From: an uncultured Sulfolobales archaeon
GTDB lineage: Archaea > Thermoproteota > Thermoprotei_A > Sulfolobales > NBVN01
Assembly: GCA_938017505.1 (NCBI GenBank)
Contig: CALIKV010000004.1
Coordinates: 1-46,847 of the forward strand
Direction of reading: 5' to 3'
Length of the DNA stretch: 46,847 nt
The translations under genes were made by a program, and so were the position numbers. Shown piece after piece: positions 4,155-23,463 of this stretch; position 1 is the stretch's first letter; every line of letters starts with the position of its first letter. The notes below the pieces were generated by a model that was not told the origin of the DNA, searched no databases, and was given only the letters and a program-made list of their open reading frames with translations.

Positions 4155-5081
4155 GTGGTTCGTATGAAGAAGTCAACAATACTTAGGGGAATGCTCAACG
4201 AGCCTGGAGTCATAGTTGTACCGGGCGCTTACGACGCGTTAAGCGCTAAGATAATAGAGATGGTTGGATTTAAAGCTATAATACATACAGGGTACGGTAC
4301 TGCGGCGTCGCTGCTAGGGATGCCCGACATAGGTCTGGTGAGTTTTGGGGAGATGGTGAGCAGGGTTGCCTCAATAGCCAGAGCGGTGAGTGTGCCGGTC
4401 ATAGGAGATGCCGACACAGGCTACGGGAACCCCATCAACGCGTACAGGACCGTTAAGGAGTACATATGGGCAGGTGCTGCAGGACTCTTCATAGAGGACC
4501 AGGTATGGCCTAAGAGGTGTGGACACATGTTCGGGAAGCGCGTAGTCGACAGGGAGGAGATGATGGGTAAGGTCGCTGCCGCCAGCGATGCTAGGAAGGA
4601 GGAGGACCCAGACTTCGTGATCGGCGCCAGGACGGACGCGATAGCGGTGGCCGGGATAGATGAGGCCATAGAGAGGGCTGAGGAGTTCAGGAAGGCTGGG
4701 GCTGATTTCATATTCATTGAGGCCTTCGAGGATCTGGATCAGATGAGGAGGGCTGTTAACGAGGTTAAAGCACCCCTAATGCTGAACCTGATCGAAGGCG
4801 GCAGAACCCCGCTGGTCTCCGTTAAGGAGGCTGAGGAGCTTGGGTTCAAGATAGTCATATTCCCGCTGACGGCCCTGTACTCCGCCGCTAAGGCAATGCT
4901 TGACACGTTAACGATACTTAAGGAGAAAGGCATGGCCCAGGAGTATCTAGACAGGCTGATAACGTTCCCCGAGTTCGCTAAGATCGTTGAGGTAAGCAAG
5001 TTCAGGGAGATGGAGGAAAGATACCTCCCGGAGAAGATGTTGGAGCTGATGTACAGGGGAGGTCCCCGGAAGATGGTGTAG
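4155..5081 (+). CDS. PEP mutase/isocitrate lyase family C-C lyase (2-methylisocitrate or alkylmalate lyase type)
   Basis: 308 aa, normal for the family. Seen: GDADTGYGNP (about 84-93, Mg-binding aspartates), PKRCGH (119-124, the family KKCGH loop with the catalytic Cys122), and NLIEGGRTPL (211-220). The family cleaves 2-hydroxy acids such as 2-methylisocitrate or 2,3-dimethylmalate to pyruvate and a second acid. The EGG motif differs from the EFG I recall in bacterial PrpB and resembles dimethylmalate lyase/petal death protein, so an alkylmalate substrate is possible. GTG at 4155 sits at the predicted transcription start; ATG at 4164 is the alternative. First gene of a tight operon with the two hydratase subunits (7-bp gap). 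Confidence 0.85.
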   Translation: MVRMKKSTILRGMLNEPGVIVVPGAYDALSAKIIEMVGFKAIIHTGYGTAASLLGMPDIGLVSFGEMVSRVASIARAVSVPVIGDADTGYGNPINAYRTVKEYIWAGAAGLFIEDQVWPKRCGHMFGKRVVDREEMMGKVAAASDARKEEDPDFVIGARTDAIAVAGIDEAIERAEEFRKAGADFIFIEAFEDLDQMRRAVNEVKAPLMLNLIEGGRTPLVSVKEAEELGFKIVIFPLTALYSAAKAMLDTLTILKEKGMAQEYLDRLITFPEFAKIVEVSKFREMEERYLPEKMLELMYRGGPRKMV

Positions 5082-5088
5082 GAAGGAC

Positions 5089-6363
5089 TTGGTGAATGTG
5101 GCCATGGACTCACTGACTGCGAAAATACTGGCGAGAGCGTCCGGCAGGGATCGTGTCGAGGTCGGCGAAACTGTGGTCGCTACGGTCGATAAGGTCATGA
5201 TTCACGACGTTACAGGACCTATAACTCTGGATCTCATAGATAATCTGAATGCGCGGATCCCAAAGCCCGAAAGCCTCTACATTTTTCTAGACCACTACAG
5301 CCCCTCCCCATCAATCCCTGCATCAGGCATACACAGGAGGTTCAGGATATTCGCCAGAACTAACGGGGTCATAAACTTCTTCGACGTGGGCGAGGGCGTG
5401 TGTCACCAGGTGATGGTTGAGGGGATAGTCAAGCCTGGAGAGGTGGTGGTGGGCGCGGACTCCCACACGACCACGTACGGCGCTCTGGCAGCTTTCTCGA
5501 CGGGCATAGGCTCTTCAGAAGCCGCGTACGCGATACTCACAGGTAGGCTGTGGTTTAAAGTCCCCGAACCACTGTACGTAAGACTTGACGGAGCTTTACC
5601 TAGTTACGCCAGCGGCAAGGACATCATATTAAGCGTGCTGGGGATCCTGGGTCAGGAGGGGGCGAACTACAAGGCCCTGGAGTTCGCTGGACCAGGTCTC
5701 AGGACGTTGAGCATGAGCGACAGACTCACAGTCGCTAACATGAGCGTTGAGTGCGGTGCTAAGAACGCTATATTCCCTCTCGACGAGGTTACATTAGATT
5801 ACGTGAGGGAATTCAACACACCCATAGACTTAAGCAGTTTAAGCTACTTGAGAACTGCCAAGGTAGAGAGCCCGCACCTCACACTAGATCTGAGCACTCT
5901 AGAGCCGATGGTCGCTAAGCCCCACAGCCCGGCGAACGTTGCCCCAGTGCCAAGTGTTGAAGGGGTGAGTATTGACGCAGCCTTCATAGGCTCGTGTACC
6001 AACGGGAGGTACGAAGACCTTCTAGCAGCTGCGAGGATCCTTAAGGGGAGGAGGGTGTCAAAGGATGTCAGGCTCATAGTGACTCCAGCCTCTAAGAGGG
6101 TGCTTATGAGAGCTCTTCAAGACGGTCTGATCAAGATGCTGCTGGATGCCGGAGCCGTCGTGACGCCACCCAGTTGCGGGGCGTGTTTCGGCGGGCACTT
6201 AGGTGTGGTTGGTGACGATGAGGTGATCATATCAAGCTCTAACAGGAATTTCGTAGGTAGGATGGGATCTCCTAAAGCTAAGATCTACTTAGCCTCGCCA
6301 GTCACGGTAGCTGCCTCCGCCCTGGAGGGGTGCGTGACCGACCCCAGGCGTTATTTAGGGTGA
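5089..6363 (+). CDS. Aconitase-family dehydratase large subunit (LeuC/homoaconitase-like)
   Basis: 424 aa, the length of archaeal two-subunit isopropylmalate/homoaconitate dehydratases. The three 4Fe-4S cysteines are Cys303 (GSCTNG), Cys363 and Cys366 (PSCGACFGG); VGADSHTTTYGALAAFSTGIGSSE is also conserved, shown here only as a family mark (GADSHTTTYGA). The enzyme isomerises or hydrates a 2-alkylmalate/maleate or tricarboxylate together with the small subunit. The start is uncertain: TTG 5089 lies very close to the GGAAGGA site, so GTG 5092, GTG 5098 or ATG 5104 may be used. Co-operonic with a lyase rather than leucine genes, which argues for catabolism rather than leucine or lysine synthesis. 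Confidence 0.85.
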   Translation: MVNVAMDSLTAKILARASGRDRVEVGETVVATVDKVMIHDVTGPITLDLIDNLNARIPKPESLYIFLDHYSPSPSIPASGIHRRFRIFARTNGVINFFDVGEGVCHQVMVEGIVKPGEVVVGADSHTTTYGALAAFSTGIGSSEAAYAILTGRLWFKVPEPLYVRLDGALPSYASGKDIILSVLGILGQEGANYKALEFAGPGLRTLSMSDRLTVANMSVECGAKNAIFPLDEVTLDYVREFNTPIDLSSLSYLRTAKVESPHLTLDLSTLEPMVAKPHSPANVAPVPSVEGVSIDAAFIGSCTNGRYEDLLAAARILKGRRVSKDVRLIVTPASKRVLMRALQDGLIKMLLDAGAVVTPPSCGACFGGHLGVVGDDEVIISSSNRNFVGRMGSPKAKIYLASPVTVAASALEGCVTDPRRYLG

Positions 6364-6367
6364 GAAC

Positions 6368-6877
6368 ATGTGTTTGAAGAGCGTTGAGGGTATAGTTCTG
6401 GTCGTAGGGGATAACGTGGATACGGACGCGATAGTGCCTGGTCGATACCTCACCTTAACGGATACGAGGGAGTTAGGGAAGCATGCTCTCGAGGGCTTGG
6501 ATCCAAGCATACCTGGCAAGCTTAAGGAGAGGAACTTGATCGTGGCGGGAAGGAACTTCGGCTGCGGATCAAGCAGGGAGCACGCCGTGCTCGCGCTCTT
6601 GGGCGCCGGCGTTAAGGCGGTGGTGGCGGAGTCCTTCGCCAGGATATTCTACAGGAACGCAATAAACAGAGGCCTCTTAGTGGTTGAGGCCCCGGGCGTG
6701 AGTCAGAAAGTATCCGACGGCGACAGACTTGTGATAGATCTGGAGAGCGGTGTGGTCGTACTGGCTTCAGGCGAGACCCTGCCGTTCAAACCCATCGCGA
6801 GGGAGGTCCTGGAGATAATTGAAGCTGGGGGTCTAATAGAGAGGCTTAGGAAGGAGCTCCAGTATGGAAGGGGATAG
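6368..6877 (+). CDS. Aconitase-family dehydratase small subunit (LeuD-like)
   Basis: 169 aa swivel-domain subunit. GDNVDTDAIVPGRYL near the N-terminus and GRNFGCGSSREHA are the family hallmarks. The substrate-selecting loop after YL reads TLTD (residues 29-32). In Methanocaldococcus the homoaconitase small subunit has YLRT and the isopropylmalate one YLVY, so this protein matches neither and lacks the Arg that contacts the distal carboxylate. Starts 4 bp after the large subunit and overlaps the next gene by 14 bp. Partner of the large subunit at 5089; substrate inferred to be a smaller or more hydrophobic dicarboxylate. Confidence 0.85.
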   Translation: MCLKSVEGIVLVVGDNVDTDAIVPGRYLTLTDTRELGKHALEGLDPSIPGKLKERNLIVAGRNFGCGSSREHAVLALLGAGVKAVVAESFARIFYRNAINRGLLVVEAPGVSQKVSDGDRLVIDLESGVVVLASGETLPFKPIAREVLEIIEAGGLIERLRKELQYGRG

Positions 6878-9164: not shown

Positions 9165-10079
9165 GTGGTGCTTCTGGGTTCCTCTCAGTCCGTTCGTGAG
9201 GGGTTCGTCGACTTGATCTCTAGGTTCATATCCCTTGTTGCCGTCAGGCTGCCCGATGACGTGCTCCCCGCCCTGGCGAGCGCCTCCAAGATTGAGAGCT
9301 CCCCACACGCCAGACTAGTTTACGAGGCGATGTTCAGGAACCTGGAGATCGCCATCCGCAGGAATGTTCCTCTCTGCCAGGACACTGGCGTGCTGGAGTT
9401 CTTCGTCGGGTTGGGTGAGGGCTTCCCACATGCAGGCGACCTTCTTGAAGCCGTTAGGGAGGCTGTGGTAAGGGCTACGGACGAGGGTTTCCTGAGACCT
9501 AACGTGGTCGACCCGGTCACGGGCAGGAACACCGGGGATAACACGGGGCTCGGACATCCGTGGGTGGAGATAGAACTGCTTCCAGGTGTCAACCACGCTG
9601 ACCTCCGGCTCTACATGGCGGGGGGAGGCTCAAGCAGACCCGGTTCGGCGAGGGTTTTAGACCCTGCTTTAGGTCTGGAGGGCGTCGCCGAATTCGTGTT
9701 AAACACCGTTGCGGAGTACGGCCCGCCAGCATGTCCACCACTAGTAGTGGGGGTTGGCTTAGGCCCTACCGTGGAGATCGCCGCCCTCCTCTCTAAGAAG
9801 GCACTCCTCAGGACCCTAGGGTCGAGGAATCCCAACCCCAAGATAGCACTGCTCGAAGAGAGGCTTGCGGATGCTATTAACGGATTGGGGGTTGGTCCGC
9901 AAGGCCTCGGCGGCAGGATCACTGTCCTCGCGGTTCATGTGGAGTACGCTGGGAGACATCCAGCCACTCTAGCGGTCGGGGTGAGCACTGCATGCTGGGC
10001 CCTCAGGAAGGGGTGGTTGAGAGTGTTCCCGGACTTGAGCTACCAGGTACTAACTCACGGGGGTGCGGTCCTTGAGTAG
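9165..10079 (+). CDS. Class I fumarase/tartrate dehydratase-type hydratase, alpha subunit
   Basis: 304 aa. PLCQDTGVLEFFVGLG, NTGDNTGLGHPWVEIE, MAGGGSSRPG, ACPPLVVGVGLG and PQGLGGR are the family's conserved blocks. They hold the Cys residues that coordinate the labile 4Fe-4S cluster. With the beta subunit it should reversibly hydrate fumarate, or the related mesaconate or tartrate. The start is unclear: GTG 9165 and GTG 9168 both overlap the GGAGGTG site. The beta gene starts 17 bp before this stop. Sits in a carboxylic-acid gene region, so fumarate released by the upstream pathway is a plausible substrate. Confidence 0.85.
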   Translation: MVLLGSSQSVREGFVDLISRFISLVAVRLPDDVLPALASASKIESSPHARLVYEAMFRNLEIAIRRNVPLCQDTGVLEFFVGLGEGFPHAGDLLEAVREAVVRATDEGFLRPNVVDPVTGRNTGDNTGLGHPWVEIELLPGVNHADLRLYMAGGGSSRPGSARVLDPALGLEGVAEFVLNTVAEYGPPACPPLVVGVGLGPTVEIAALLSKKALLRTLGSRNPNPKIALLEERLADAINGLGVGPQGLGGRITVLAVHVEYAGRHPATLAVGVSTACWALRKGWLRVFPDLSYQVLTHGGAVLE

Positions 10080-10671
10080 AGTTGTGAATCTCCCAGTAAC
10101 CGACGACGTTGTGTCTGAACTGAAGGTAGGCGACGTCATCTATGTCAGCGGCGTCGTAGTGACCGCGAGAGACGCGGTTCACAGGAGGTTCCTTGTGGAG
10201 GGGGTCCCGTTGCCTGTGGATCTGAGGGGCTTGGCAATACTTCACGCCGGCCCTATCATGGCTAGGTTGGGGGACAGGTGGGTCTGTCAATCCATAGGTC
10301 CTACCACGAGCATGAGGATGGAGTACTACGAGAGCGAATTCATTGAGAGGACAGGGGTTAAGGTGATCATAGGTAAGGGGGGTATGGGTAACAGGACTGC
10401 TGAGGCCTGCAGGAGGTTCAAGACGGTGTACGTGATATTCCCCGGAGGTTGCGGGGCTCTCGGCGCCTTCGCTGTGGAGGAGGTGCTGGGAGTTGAGTGG
10501 CTTGACCTAGGAATTCCGGAAGCGCTCTGGCTGCTGAGGGTGAAGGAGTTCGGACCCCTGATAGTCGCCATAGATCTTCAAGGAAGTAACCTAACGGATG
10601 AGGTGACCAACACAGCTAAGTCGAGAGTAGCTACTCAACTGCAGTCAAAAATAAGACAGTGCTTGCTCTAG
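10063..10671 (+). CDS. Class I fumarase/tartrate dehydratase-type hydratase, beta subunit
   Basis: 202 aa, matching the beta domain: VYVSGVVVTARDAVHRR (catalytic TARD-H block), HAGPI, SIGPTTSMRMEYY, VIIGKGGMGNRTAEA and PGGCGALG. Overlaps the alpha gene by 17 bp (GTG 10063; TTG 10072 is an alternative), so translation is probably coupled. Together with alpha it replaces the single-chain bacterial enzyme. Substrate among fumarate, mesaconate and tartrate cannot be told from sequence alone. Converges on the Lrp-like gene. Confidence 0.85.
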   Translation: MRSLSRVVNLPVTDDVVSELKVGDVIYVSGVVVTARDAVHRRFLVEGVPLPVDLRGLAILHAGPIMARLGDRWVCQSIGPTTSMRMEYYESEFIERTGVKVIIGKGGMGNRTAEACRRFKTVYVIFPGGCGALGAFAVEEVLGVEWLDLGIPEALWLLRVKEFGPLIVAIDLQGSNLTDEVTNTAKSRVATQLQSKIRQCLL

Positions 10672-11140: not shown

Positions 11141-11191
11141 ATTTTTATACATTTGGACATTTTCCACATCCATAAATAAATGTATAAAAAT
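11141..11191. promoter_or_regulatory. Perfect 14-bp inverted repeat carrying mirrored TATA boxes
   Basis: ATTTTTATACATTT (11141-11154) and its exact complement AAATGTATAAAAAT (11178-11191) are 23 bp apart. The right arm is a good TATA box for the M20 operon; the left arm is the same on the other strand, towards the Lrp-like gene. It may serve as a divergent promoter, as a regulator site covering TATA, or both. Confidence 0.6.
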
Positions 11192-19974: not shown

Positions 19975-21861
19975 CTAGCTAATGGACAAGGTTACTCTGA
20001 AGTAGTCTTTAGTCATGTTCGTTAGTTTGAGTTCTATAGCAGTTATTAGCCCCTGCAACGACTCTTTAATGCCCTTCTCGGTTCTTGAGAGAGTTACTTG
20101 CTTCCAGCTCCACAGCCCTGCAGTTTCGCTTAGTCTTACATCAACTCTATTGCTTTCCGAAGCCAGTGTGAATGAATCGCTCTCCACGTAAGATCCTACT
20201 TCGACATTCCCACCACCTACCTCTATCCTCAGCTTGTGCAGCGAGTACGGTGAGTAGGGTATCTCGATAACGAGCAGTTTATACGTGTTAAGTAAGTCGC
20301 TTAGATAGTAAGTCACAGCGATCGAATCGCCGTTAAGGTGAAGTCCCTTAGTTAATCCCCGGTTTTCAAGCGTGCTGAACATAACCACATCACCGGGCTC
20401 CTCAAGGTCGACGACTCGATATCTTGTCGGGCTGAGTATGCGCCCTGAGGAATAGCCACCACCCCTGCTTAACCACTCGTTCAACTCACCGAGCTCTCTA
20501 AACAGGAATTCTCTGAATGCAGCTCTCCTATACGTATCCGGCGTGTAGTAAGTTAAATCACTTAAGTAAGTCTCCGGGTATCTGGACATTATGTTGAGTA
20601 TGTTGCTTTCGTGACCTGCCCTCCTAACGTCCAGCTCGAATAAAATGCCGCCGTCTGAGGGCTTCACGTACGCGTTAAGCTGCTCACCCTCAATTACCAC
20701 CTCGTCATCTCCGTCGAAATCGAAATCCAGCTTCCTAACCCCACGACCTTTTAAGAGCCTGTCCGCCTGGTTCTCAGCCATGATTAAATGCCTGTAATTC
20801 TCCGACCTTATGTGATGTACGTACGTGCCGCCGAAGAGCCCGTGCCAGTACGCGTCGTTGCACTCCGCTAGATGTATGTGGTCCCGGGCGTCCTCAAGCC
20901 TGAAACCGCTCATAGATTCTGCGTTGGCGACCTTCCTCCTGACGTATATTAGCTTCTTATGCATGTTATTAGACTCGCTGTATTTAACTAGAAAATTCCA
21001 GATCAAGCCCCCACTCCATTCCATCATCTTGTCGTAGCTCCCGTGAGGTAGATAAGTCAATCCCTTAACCTCAGCTACGGTCACGTAATCCCTCGGCCTC
21101 ATCATGATGAATCCCTCGCCTGCCAGCGCTTCATTGAGGAACTCCTCCAGCCACCTACCTGTAACATCCCAAGGCCTCCACTCACCGAACTTCTCCGCGT
21201 CGCTACCCCATAAGATGTAGGGGCGTTCACTCAGCTCTGAGGCCTTAACCACATACTGAATGACTTCAGGCACGGGCGACCAAGGTAGCTTATACCTCAC
21301 CTCAGTATCTATGAAGAACAGCTTGACTGCGTTGCCTGAGTCCTCAGTAAGCCATAAGTACTTACTGTCACTCCATTTAAGGCCTTTCAGGTAGAGGAGT
21401 TGGTCGTCCACGAAGACGTACTCATAACCGAACTTACTTACGATTGAAGGTATCATTTGATCCCAAAACCTCTCAGGAAGCCAGAACCCCTTCAACGCGT
21501 AATCGCCGACAAGCCTTCGAAAAAGATCGTTATACTTCCTCACCTGCTCCACTCGATCCTCGGCAGGTATTAACGGGAGTATGGCCTCAGAGTACGTCCC
21601 TCCAACAAACTCCAGGAAGCCCTTATCACCAGCCTTCTTAATCATCTCAAGGAAGTCCGGGTAATAGTCCCTAGCGTAAATCAGCAGAGGACCTGAGAAA
21701 TGCAGTGCTATCGGAGGTTCGTACCTGAGCAGGGTCTCCATCAGCGGTCCGTAGCTGTTCTCGAACAACCTGTCAAGAACCTCTCTTAACTGGCCTACTG
21801 GTTGGTGGAAGTGGACAACGAAGATGAACGCCGGCTTACTCTTCTTAGCTTCAGGCCCCAT
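19975..21861 (-). CDS. GH57 glycoside hydrolase (4-alpha-glucanotransferase/alpha-amylase type)
   Basis: 628 aa. GH57 regions in order: HFHQP (17-21), GGTY (87-90), WLPERFWD with nucleophile Glu130, and WGSDAEKFGEW with acid/base Asp221. The 91-residue spacing between these equals Glu123-Asp214 of the Thermococcus litoralis glucanotransferase. The C-terminal ~300 residues correspond to the beta-sandwich domains of that subgroup. No signal peptide, so intracellular: it would act on maltodextrin or glycogen. Divergent from the maltokinase-like gene, sharing a 273-bp region, which suggests common control in alpha-glucan metabolism. Confidence 0.9.
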   Translation of the reverse strand: MGPEAKKSKPAFIFVVHFHQPVGQLREVLDRLFENSYGPLMETLLRYEPPIALHFSGPLLIYARDYYPDFLEMIKKAGDKGFLEFVGGTYSEAILPLIPAEDRVEQVRKYNDLFRRLVGDYALKGFWLPERFWDQMIPSIVSKFGYEYVFVDDQLLYLKGLKWSDSKYLWLTEDSGNAVKLFFIDTEVRYKLPWSPVPEVIQYVVKASELSERPYILWGSDAEKFGEWRPWDVTGRWLEEFLNEALAGEGFIMMRPRDYVTVAEVKGLTYLPHGSYDKMMEWSGGLIWNFLVKYSESNNMHKKLIYVRRKVANAESMSGFRLEDARDHIHLAECNDAYWHGLFGGTYVHHIRSENYRHLIMAENQADRLLKGRGVRKLDFDFDGDDEVVIEGEQLNAYVKPSDGGILFELDVRRAGHESNILNIMSRYPETYLSDLTYYTPDTYRRAAFREFLFRELGELNEWLSRGGGYSSGRILSPTRYRVVDLEEPGDVVMFSTLENRGLTKGLHLNGDSIAVTYYLSDLLNTYKLLVIEIPYSPYSLHKLRIEVGGGNVEVGSYVESDSFTLASESNRVDVRLSETAGLWSWKQVTLSRTEKGIKESLQGLITAIELKLTNMTKDYFRVTLSIS

Positions 21862-21927
21862 ATAAACTCACACCAGGTTTGCTCAGCGATGAGGGTCTTC
21901 CCAGAGTGAAGTACCTTAGAGGTCTAG

Positions 21928-22084
21928 ACGGTGAACTCGGTGAGTGAGGGTGGAGGAGAAGCTCTTTAAGGGGCCTCAACCCGTCTGGGAGGGGTTGGCC
22001 CCTGGCAGGTGGGTTGAGGGGAACGTAAACGCGTGAATCAGAGAATAAGCCCTCTGAACGTCGAATCACCGCCGAACTCACCGT
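21928..22084 (+). ncRNA. Candidate structured RNA between the GH57 and maltokinase genes
   Basis: Outer helix ACGGTGA (21928-21934) with TCACCGT (22078-22084), extended past a 2x2 loop. Inside lie a perfect 9-bp stem CCTCAACCC (21974-21982)/GGGTTGAGG (22011-22019) capped by AGGGG-TTGG-CCCCT (21990-22003), and a 5-bp hairpin CAGAG/CTCTG (22039-22056). A TATA-like ATATAAA (about 21861-21867) precedes it on the plus strand. No RNA family recognised; the strand is inferred from that box. It could also be a relic of an IS605-type guide RNA, or a leader of one of the two genes. Confidence 0.4.
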
Positions 22085-22103
22085 GAGTAGTAGGTCAGGA
22101 GCG

Positions 22104-22111
22104 TTAATTAA
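22104..22111 (+). promoter_or_regulatory. TATA box of the maltokinase-like gene
   Basis: TTAATTAA, 24 bp before the GTG at 22135, placing the transcript start about at the start codon (leaderless). Confidence 0.45.
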
Positions 22112-22134
22112 CTCACATCCCTACTCATAACTCG

Positions 22135-23463
22135 GTGCTCAAGGGCTTGAGTTGCTGTGGTGATAGACTTGTCGAGTGGCTCATTAGGAGGAGATGGTAC
22201 CCGTCTAAAGGAACGCTGCCTGACGAGATGGCTACGTTCAGACTTAGCAAGAACGTGCTCGGAGTAGTTCTCAGAGTCAAGTCGCAGGAGGTCTTCGCCC
22301 CGGTTCTAGTGAACGGTGAGGAGTTTACTGAAGGCGAGCACTCTGTGGAGTACGTTAAGAGCTTGATGGAAGGGGGCACGCTGCTAAACACGGAGGTCGT
22401 CAAACCTATTCCTAGAGGTAGGATTAGAGTTAAGCCTCTCTCAAGCAGGTGGACTAACGTGTTGTCTATCGTTGAGGTAGGCAGTTCTAAGTACGTCCTT
22501 AAGGGCTATAGGACAGTCTCCGCAGACTCGAGCGAGCCCAGGTTCCTCAGACACTTAACCAAGGCAGGGTTCCCACACACACCTGAGTTAGTGATGGAGG
22601 TTAAGTTAGGTGATGTAACCGTGGCGGTGATGACTAGGTACATCAAGTCGGTGAGTGACGGTGGACTGCCTTTCTACGTAAGCGCGTCTAGACATTACAG
22701 GGGTGGTGAGTTAGACAACGTGCTTGAAAACGCTGTGAAGCTGGGCAACGTTGTCGCGTTATTCCACAACGTGATGAGCGCCTGTAGGGAGGAATGGTGC
22801 CTGCCTAAAATGGCTACGGAAGAGGACGTTAAGACTTGGTTAAATGATATAGAGCTTCAAGCAAGCATGAACGAAAAACTCTTGGGAGACTTAAGCAGTG
22901 AGGTAGGGATTGATGTCTGCAAGGTGATTAATAAAGCTCTAACTAAACTGAAGCGAGAGCTTAAGGACCTCAAGGGCTTAAAACTTATCAGAACCCACGG
23001 GGATCTACACCTAGCTCAGACACTCTATACCGGTAAGGATTTCATACTCATAGACTTCGAGGGGGAGCCGAACAGAACTCGAGGGAGGAGAGAAGTATTA
23101 GAAACCGCATCAAGGGATCTCGCCTGTATCGCTCGATCACTTCACTACATAGCCTTGACATCGTTAACTGAAGCTAAAGGGGTAACGGCGAAGGAATCGC
23201 TCAATTCCTTTGTTAGTGGGGTTACCGAGCTTGAAAGAGCGAATCAATGGCAGGACGCAGTCTTTAACTCCTTCCTAAAAGGATACTTAACACACGTCAA
23301 TCTAGAGGACGTGCAAGGCTCTCCAGATATAGAGGTGTTTATGAAGACGCTTAACACATGGACTCTTGAGAGAGCGCTCTACGAGCTCATCTACGAAATC
23401 AACTACAGGACGGGATACGCGTACGTGCCCCTAAAATATTTACTATCTGTGGTCCAATCTTAA
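22135..23463 (+). CDS. Maltokinase-like protein kinase-fold sugar kinase
   Basis: 442 aa, the size of actinobacterial maltokinase (Mak/Pep2). ATP-site Lys in KYVLKGYR (Lys123), catalytic loop THGDLHLAQTLY (287-298) and metal site LIDFEGEPNRTRGRRE (305-320) match the family blocks. RALYELIYEINYR near the end is also typical. The enzyme should phosphorylate maltose to maltose 1-phosphate. GTG start at 22135 fits the TATA box. Divergent from GH57, so both likely serve alpha-glucan turnover; no GlgE-type maltosyltransferase is present in the window. Confidence 0.8.
   Translation: MLKGLSCCGDRLVEWLIRRRWYPSKGTLPDEMATFRLSKNVLGVVLRVKSQEVFAPVLVNGEEFTEGEHSVEYVKSLMEGGTLLNTEVVKPIPRGRIRVKPLSSRWTNVLSIVEVGSSKYVLKGYRTVSADSSEPRFLRHLTKAGFPHTPELVMEVKLGDVTVAVMTRYIKSVSDGGLPFYVSASRHYRGGELDNVLENAVKLGNVVALFHNVMSACREEWCLPKMATEEDVKTWLNDIELQASMNEKLLGDLSSEVGIDVCKVINKALTKLKRELKDLKGLKLIRTHGDLHLAQTLYTGKDFILIDFEGEPNRTRGRREVLETASRDLACIARSLHYIALTSLTEAKGVTAKESLNSFVSGVTELERANQWQDAVFNSFLKGYLTHVNLEDVQGSPDIEVFMKTLNTWTLERALYELIYEINYRTGYAYVPLKYLLSVVQS

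Follow-up and report, generated by a model that had tools for sequence, protein, structure and literature searches.

A lineage-specific folded element upstream of a GH57 gene in a hot-spring Sulfolobales archaeon is a candidate structured mRNA leader

MITEs have terminal inverted repeats of about 4–30 bp and a flanking target-site duplication that is lost in old copies, and they are recognized by the presence of several copies or of a parent transposon with matching ends. The guide (omega) RNA of IS605/TnpB elements is found next to the 3′ end of tnpB or overlapping it. Riboswitches and other structured leaders resemble the element described here in that a structured leader lies between the start of transcription (predicted in our case) and the start codon, and in that one strand is common to two helices, the second of which borders a sequence like a ribosome site; unlike riboswitches, our element belongs to no Rfam family, had no relatives that we could find and does not switch robustly in silico. 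For the autoregulatory L7Ae k-turn leaders of archaea, the published account indicates that the structure of an mRNA leader can change translation (PMC6298567), but the gene is a different one and neither TGATGA nor TGAnGA occurs on either strand of positions 21850–22150 here. In the bidirectional promoters of Pyrococcus furiosus, one symmetric TATA serves two starts, one to each side of it, at a spacing of about 50 bp, which is 49 bp at PF1918 (PMC6640164). The locus examined here is similar, with predicted starts at 22082 and 22134 that are 52 bp apart, but its predicted leftward product would be the leader of a gene, not an antisense RNA. Lastly, of 24 Crenarchaeal genomes, 21 have leaderless genes, with a predicted mean share of 49.5% in those 21 (PMC3160421), so that it would be notable for one lineage to have gained a long structured leader.

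The window, i.e., the whole stretch of DNA that was analyzed, comprises 46,847 nt of contig CALIKV010000004.1 (GCA_938017505.1) from an uncultured Sulfolobales archaeon of lineage NBVN01, a hot-spring organism whose genome (G000; 1.46 Mb) is 82% complete. A preliminary description placed a 157-bp folded element in a non-coding gap between alpha-glucan genes, and this placement was confirmed, as the gap at 21862–22134 separates a GH57 gene from a maltokinase-like gene transcribed in the opposite direction (Table 1). The match of the latter's product to the putative-maltokinase profile is under the curated cut-off of the model. The N-terminus of the GH57 protein lies shortly ahead of its first conserved residues; by eye, the GH57 proteins of three congeners (L022, L023, and L024) may begin about 15–20 in-frame codons further upstream. 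Elsewhere in the window, aconitase is encoded by two adjacent genes, as is fumarase (5089–6877 and 9165–10671, respectively), and a PEP-mutase/isocitrate-lyase-like gene (4155–5081) adjoins the aconitase gene pair.

Table 1. Features of the GH57/maltokinase-like locus (positions are those of the window).
Feature	Position	Strand	Remarks
GH57 alpha-amylase/4-alpha-glucanotransferase-like gene	19975–21861	-	Pfam Glyco_hydro_57 and alpha-amylase/4-alpha-glucanotransferase domains
76-codon open frame	21851–22081	-	GTG 22081 at predicted start; overlaps GH57 start codon; codon usage not gene-like
Divergent intergenic gap, GH57 gene (-)/maltokinase-like gene (+)	21862–22134		273 bp
Predicted GH57 mRNA 5′ leader, ~220 nt	21862–22082	-	Inferred from promoter prediction and folding
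Direct repeat, imperfect 11 bp (10/11), left copy	21862–21872	+	Possible target-site duplication
Shine-Dalgarno-like GGTG, 9 nt before GH57 ATG	21871–21874	-	Read from the sequence; presumed motif
Extra DNA relative to congeners	~21873–22106 (approximate ends)		Net 202–206 bp between conserved codons
Strand B, alternative partner of C	21876–21892	-	-24.2 kcal/mol; one base from GGTG
Folded domain of the preliminary description	21928–22084	-	157 bp; fold z-scores
Long-range closing helix	21928–21947 with 22066–22084		Seen on both strands
Strand A, closing-helix partner of C	21928–21947	-	-22.5 kcal/mol
Central hairpin	21974–22019	-	9-bp perfect stem (21974–21982/22011–22019) with nested 5-bp hairpin
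Second hairpin, 6–7 bp	22038–22057	-	22038–22043/22052–22057
Strand C, leader 5′ strand	22066–22082	-	Common to two alternative helices
Best TATA-like site of the gap	22104–22113	-	Palindromic core TTAATTAA that can be read in either direction; starts predicted at 22082 (-) and 22134 (+)
Direct repeat, imperfect 11 bp, right copy	22107–22117	+	Possible target-site duplication
Putative maltokinase-like gene	22135–23463	+	APH domain; GTG start at 22135

Folding and repeat searches recovered all of the helices claimed previously, that is, the long-range helix, the 9-bp perfect stem with its nested 5-bp hairpin and the further hairpin. The claim of strong folding was also borne out: the MFE z-score of 21928–22084 was -4.0 on the plus and -5.2 on the minus strand, with none of 200 shuffles per strand as good, and after correction for GC the element ranked first among the 3736 strand-windows of the whole window, by a narrow margin (z of -2.74 versus -2.68 for the next). 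In a genome fold scan of 227 kb (1192 strand-windows labeled as gap, 30 shuffles each), it scored -4.95 on the minus and -3.56 on the plus strand. The other windows in the scan below -4.5 were one that overlaps the element and three at L065:18921–19001, which lie inside a Peripla_BP_6 gene that the gene caller had dropped at the end of a stretch; setting this mislabeled coding place aside, the minus strand of the element is the most folded of the non-coding windows sampled in the 227 kb. Its fold exceeds chance, but similar values are reachable by coding DNA. A coding stretch of the periplasmic-binding-protein gene (L065:18880–19220) has a fold z-score of about -5, and thus z-scores alone do not mark RNA genes. 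Elsewhere in the window, an AT-rich inverted repeat, TTTTTATACATTT ... AAATGTATAAAAA, is situated at 11142–11190, upstream of an M20 peptidase gene (start 11255), and the 157 nt from 11101 that hold it fold with a z-score of -4.3.

One reading of such a fold is a free-standing small RNA encoded on either strand. The closing helix gives a compact domain, and the fold z-score goes beyond the -3.45 scored in the same scan by a window that overlaps this genome's SRP RNA (L059:9485–9790). Even so, we regard this reading as improbable, based on the lack of an oligo-T run after the structure on either strand (by eye), the lack of the TGATGA box noted above, and the lack of homologues in the order or class genomes and of an Rfam match at the gathering score. 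The latter result agrees with the preliminary description, whose author recognized no known family; an Rfam search at permissive thresholds gave four matches with E of 1 to 8.3, all far below gathering scores. RNase P RNA and SRP RNA were also considered as candidates, and neither gave an Rfam match at the element, both being situated on other contigs of the genome.

No second copy of the element was found in its own genome (82% complete), and blastn against 60 genomes, the own one included, found no homologue and just two matches of 19–26 bp. A covariance model was built from the single sequence (effective sequence number of 0.59); with an E limit of 10, its only matches in the genome of origin were the element and the reverse strand of the element itself. 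Among 214 genomes of the order (own included) it gave one weak match, in another family, with an E of 0.07 per genome, which is expected by chance, and among 229 genomes of the class (own included) it gave none but the own at E of 0.05; these two genome sets overlap, and the stricter filters of both searches lose weak matches. Searches of phages and plasmids returned nothing beyond chance, the plasmids giving one chance-level match of 31 bp. In viral contigs, the central-stem pattern had five exact matches, none of them supported by the covariance model, the outer-helix pattern and an 18-mer had no match, and a 17-mer had one that we take as chance.

These results bear on a suggestion of the preliminary description, that the element might be a relic of an IS605-type guide RNA. 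It is folded non-coding DNA in an archaeon, as such a relic would be, but nothing similar was found elsewhere in the genome, in the order or class genomes or in phages, the plasmids contributed only the chance-level match, and no TnpB or transposase domain was detected in the 29 window proteins that were scanned (the window has 67 ORFs of at least 90 aa). We consider this origin unsupported and extremely unlikely. The element does not adjoin a tnpB gene, its neighbors being the GH57 and maltokinase-like genes.

Comparison with congeners showed that the element has a restricted distribution. Three of the four congeners available for comparison retain the GH57 and kinase genes as a divergent pair; a search of the fourth (G002) with the chosen thresholds detected neither gene. 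The distance from the HFHQP codons of the GH57 gene to the RWYP codons of the kinase gene is 378 bp here versus 175, 176, and 172 bp in the three congeners, which argues that, judged by the spacing of conserved codons, the extra DNA of about 200 bp is a lineage-specific gain; congener alignments, which were misplaced by the length difference, were left out of this measurement. Since these congeners have the gene pair without the element, it is not essential, and as their GH57 and kinase protein matches lie only 88–101 bp apart, they have no room for a leader of the kind described below. Among 17 GH57 loci checked for a kinase neighbor, a close divergent pair was present in L025 only, L027 and L031 having a distant relative farther away.

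The gain in one species, with 202–206 bp less in three congeners, is what would be expected from the main rival to the reading that we prefer: the element may be an inert, functionless leftover of inserted DNA, whether a small mobile sequence, a MITE-like one or some other kind, maybe transcribed, and its inverted repeats would be transposon ends or accidental palindromes. We take this to be a real, if doubtful, possibility. Consistent with it are a 13-bp imperfect inverted repeat that spans the 157 bp with arms that are 85% complementary, and an imperfect 11-bp direct repeat that brackets the extra DNA. The element is also like MITEs in its size, its short imperfect inverted repeats, its intergenic location, its predicted folding transcript and its possible direct repeats, and transcripts with stable folds are among the features described for MITEs in the review consulted, as are copy numbers that range from 1 upwards (PMC10969869). 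However, it is a single copy in the 82% complete genome, no parent was found, and no transposon end in the genus matched beyond the control level, the best other match having two mismatches. The inverted repeats neither abut the direct repeats nor sit at the edges of the extra DNA, and the direct repeat is itself weakly significant, as repeats of this quality whose starts lie 150 or more apart turned up in 8 of 200 shuffles. With a GC content of about 58.6% the element is also GC-rich, unlike MITEs, which that same review describes as typically AT-rich (PMC10969869).

The direction in which the element might be transcribed was approached with a TATA-like matrix learned from 116 upstream regions of this genome, which is weak and without a sharp position peak, and whose training set includes the kinase's own upstream region, which holds the 22104–22113 site read rightwards. 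Starts were predicted with an assumed TATA-to-start spacing of 26 nt. The minus-strand sequence AGTTAATTAA at 22113–22104 scores 8.6 bits, which is in the top 0.04% of window positions and above the 75th percentile of gene upstream regions, and its predicted start, ~22082, is the foot of the folded structure. Read rightwards, the same site scores 7.1 bits, with a predicted start one base before the kinase GTG. The preliminary description had proposed a cis-regulatory leader for either gene. The GH57 alternative fits best, because the strongest TATA-like site is on the minus strand with its start at the structure's foot, while a maltokinase leader is less likely, since the nearest predicted start for that gene (22134) is 3′ of the element. 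On this prediction, the element would lie upstream of the kinase transcript and, should the start on the left be the one in use, would form the 5′ part of the GH57 mRNA, this promoter prediction being what places the leader in the GH57 5′ UTR. The element could also be transcribed rightwards from a weaker plus-strand site at 21858, which overlies the start codon of the GH57 gene and scores 6.6 bits (start predicted at 21889).

The promoter region could also be viewed at the level of DNA, as an array of palindromic ACTCAC/GTGAGT operator sites for a regulator of both sugar genes, with the RNA fold as a by-product. ACTCA/TGAGT occurs six times in the gap versus 0.84 expected, which makes the gap the window's densest place for this motif, a perfect ACTCAC-n-GTGAGT palindrome at 22076–22088 lies over the predicted start, and CTACTC/GAGTAG arms flank the TATA region both here and in one congener (G003). 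Yet the motif was picked after looking, and the one palindrome supplies, with its two arms, two of the six sites. Furthermore, the one-mismatch palindrome exceeds its reversed control in only two of five genus genomes (5 versus 2 in this genome, its own site included, and 6 versus 2 in G001) and falls below it in three, and CTACTC/GAGTAG pairs are found at two other places of the sample as well. On balance we consider an operator array improbable. As to the arrangement of the arms, TGAGTAG ... CTACTCA (22084–22127) flank the TATA-like site here, and in G003 the order is the opposite, CTACTC ... GAGTAG.

When the predicted GH57 leader was folded at 60–80°C, its first 17 nt (strand C, 22082–22066), which pair with 21930–21947 of strand A, proved to have another possible partner, namely strand B, which is beside the GGTG that we take to be Shine-Dalgarno-like. 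As modeled, helices A and B are mutually exclusive, share strand C and have similar energies. Of 2000 shuffles of the region of strand B, 0.05% matched the B helix, as did 0.4% of 2000 in which the 20 nt at the 5′ end were shuffled. Relative to 1362 genomic 66-mers, it was matched by 0.44% and the A helix by 1.2%, and among 2998 genomic 221-nt stretches none had two partners as strong and one had a second partner as strong. At the level of DNA, strand B has alignment scores of 14–15 versus a background 99th percentile of 18, i.e., no excess, and it is significant only with G-U pairs allowed. Since it uses G-U pairs, helix B forms only in minus-strand RNA (-24.2 kcal/mol versus -10.5 kcal/mol on the plus strand), which agrees with the direction of the promoter. 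For the A helix the two strands do not differ (-22.2 and -22.5), and the central hairpin is more stable in plus-strand RNA (-31.8 versus -29.3 for the minus).

Which of the two helices is preferred depends on how long a stretch is folded. In a 242-nt fold, the values for strand C with A versus B were 0.90 versus 0.01 at 37°C, and on heating became 0.40 versus 0.25 at 70°C and 0.24 versus 0.21 at 80°C, with B opening the ribosome site. In a 282-nt fold, by contrast, B was preferred already at 37°C, and between 60 and 85°C the ribosome site was more hidden in B than in A. The modeled state preference and the effect on the ribosome site thus vary with the folded length, and the extrapolated energies prove no switch.

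A protein-coding role for the same strand, in which a leaderless upstream frame of 76 codons is coupled to, or read into, the GH57 gene, was also weighed. Its GTG at the predicted start and its overlap with the GH57 ATG are suggestive, although 104 of 5000 shuffles do as well. The codon score of the frame, -0.20, is as low in one of 591 real gene pieces, and 24.5% of 1773 wrong-frame pieces score as high. A Pfam search gave no match, and the best non-self match in 98 genomes (own included) had an E of 8.1e-4 per genome and three internal stops. Such a gene is therefore very unlikely; on the plus strand, stops occur across the element in all three frames.

Our preferred, though tentative, explanation is that the element gives the GH57 mRNA of this lineage a structured 5′ leader that is specific to it, about 220 nt long and with two alternative closures. 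Counted against this are the lack of any homologue in our searches, the better pairing of the central hairpin as plus strand and the weak promoter matrix. From what was computed, namely the fold, its absence from the congeners, the site resembling a promoter and the competition between two helices, we infer transcription, its strand, an effect on translation and any signal as follows. The gap with the divergent promoters would have grown by about 200 bp, so that a strongly folded segment came to lie between promoter and GH57 start. Leftward transcription from the two-way TATA-like site would then begin at ~22082 and yield the leader of about 220 nt, whose first 17 nt could close the whole domain either with 21928–21947 (state A) or with 21876–21892 (state B), the helix of state B being predicted to sit beside the Shine-Dalgarno-like sequence. 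The most likely effect would be to set, and perhaps to regulate, GH57 translation. The leader may regulate translation of the GH57 gene, or it may simply fold inserted sequence out of the way.

A more far-reaching version of this explanation, which we consider unlikely, is that in this one Sulfolobales lineage the GH57 leader is a bistable RNA switch, recently derived from inserted palindromic sequence, whose 5′ end would pick either the distal helix or the one on the side of the ribosome site and so tune alpha-glucan breakdown to temperature or a sugar signal. If switching were true, the element would be a case of RNA-based control that arose de novo in an archaeon; an inert element would instead illustrate how, in scans of a single genome, palindromes that were inserted can look like regulatory RNA.
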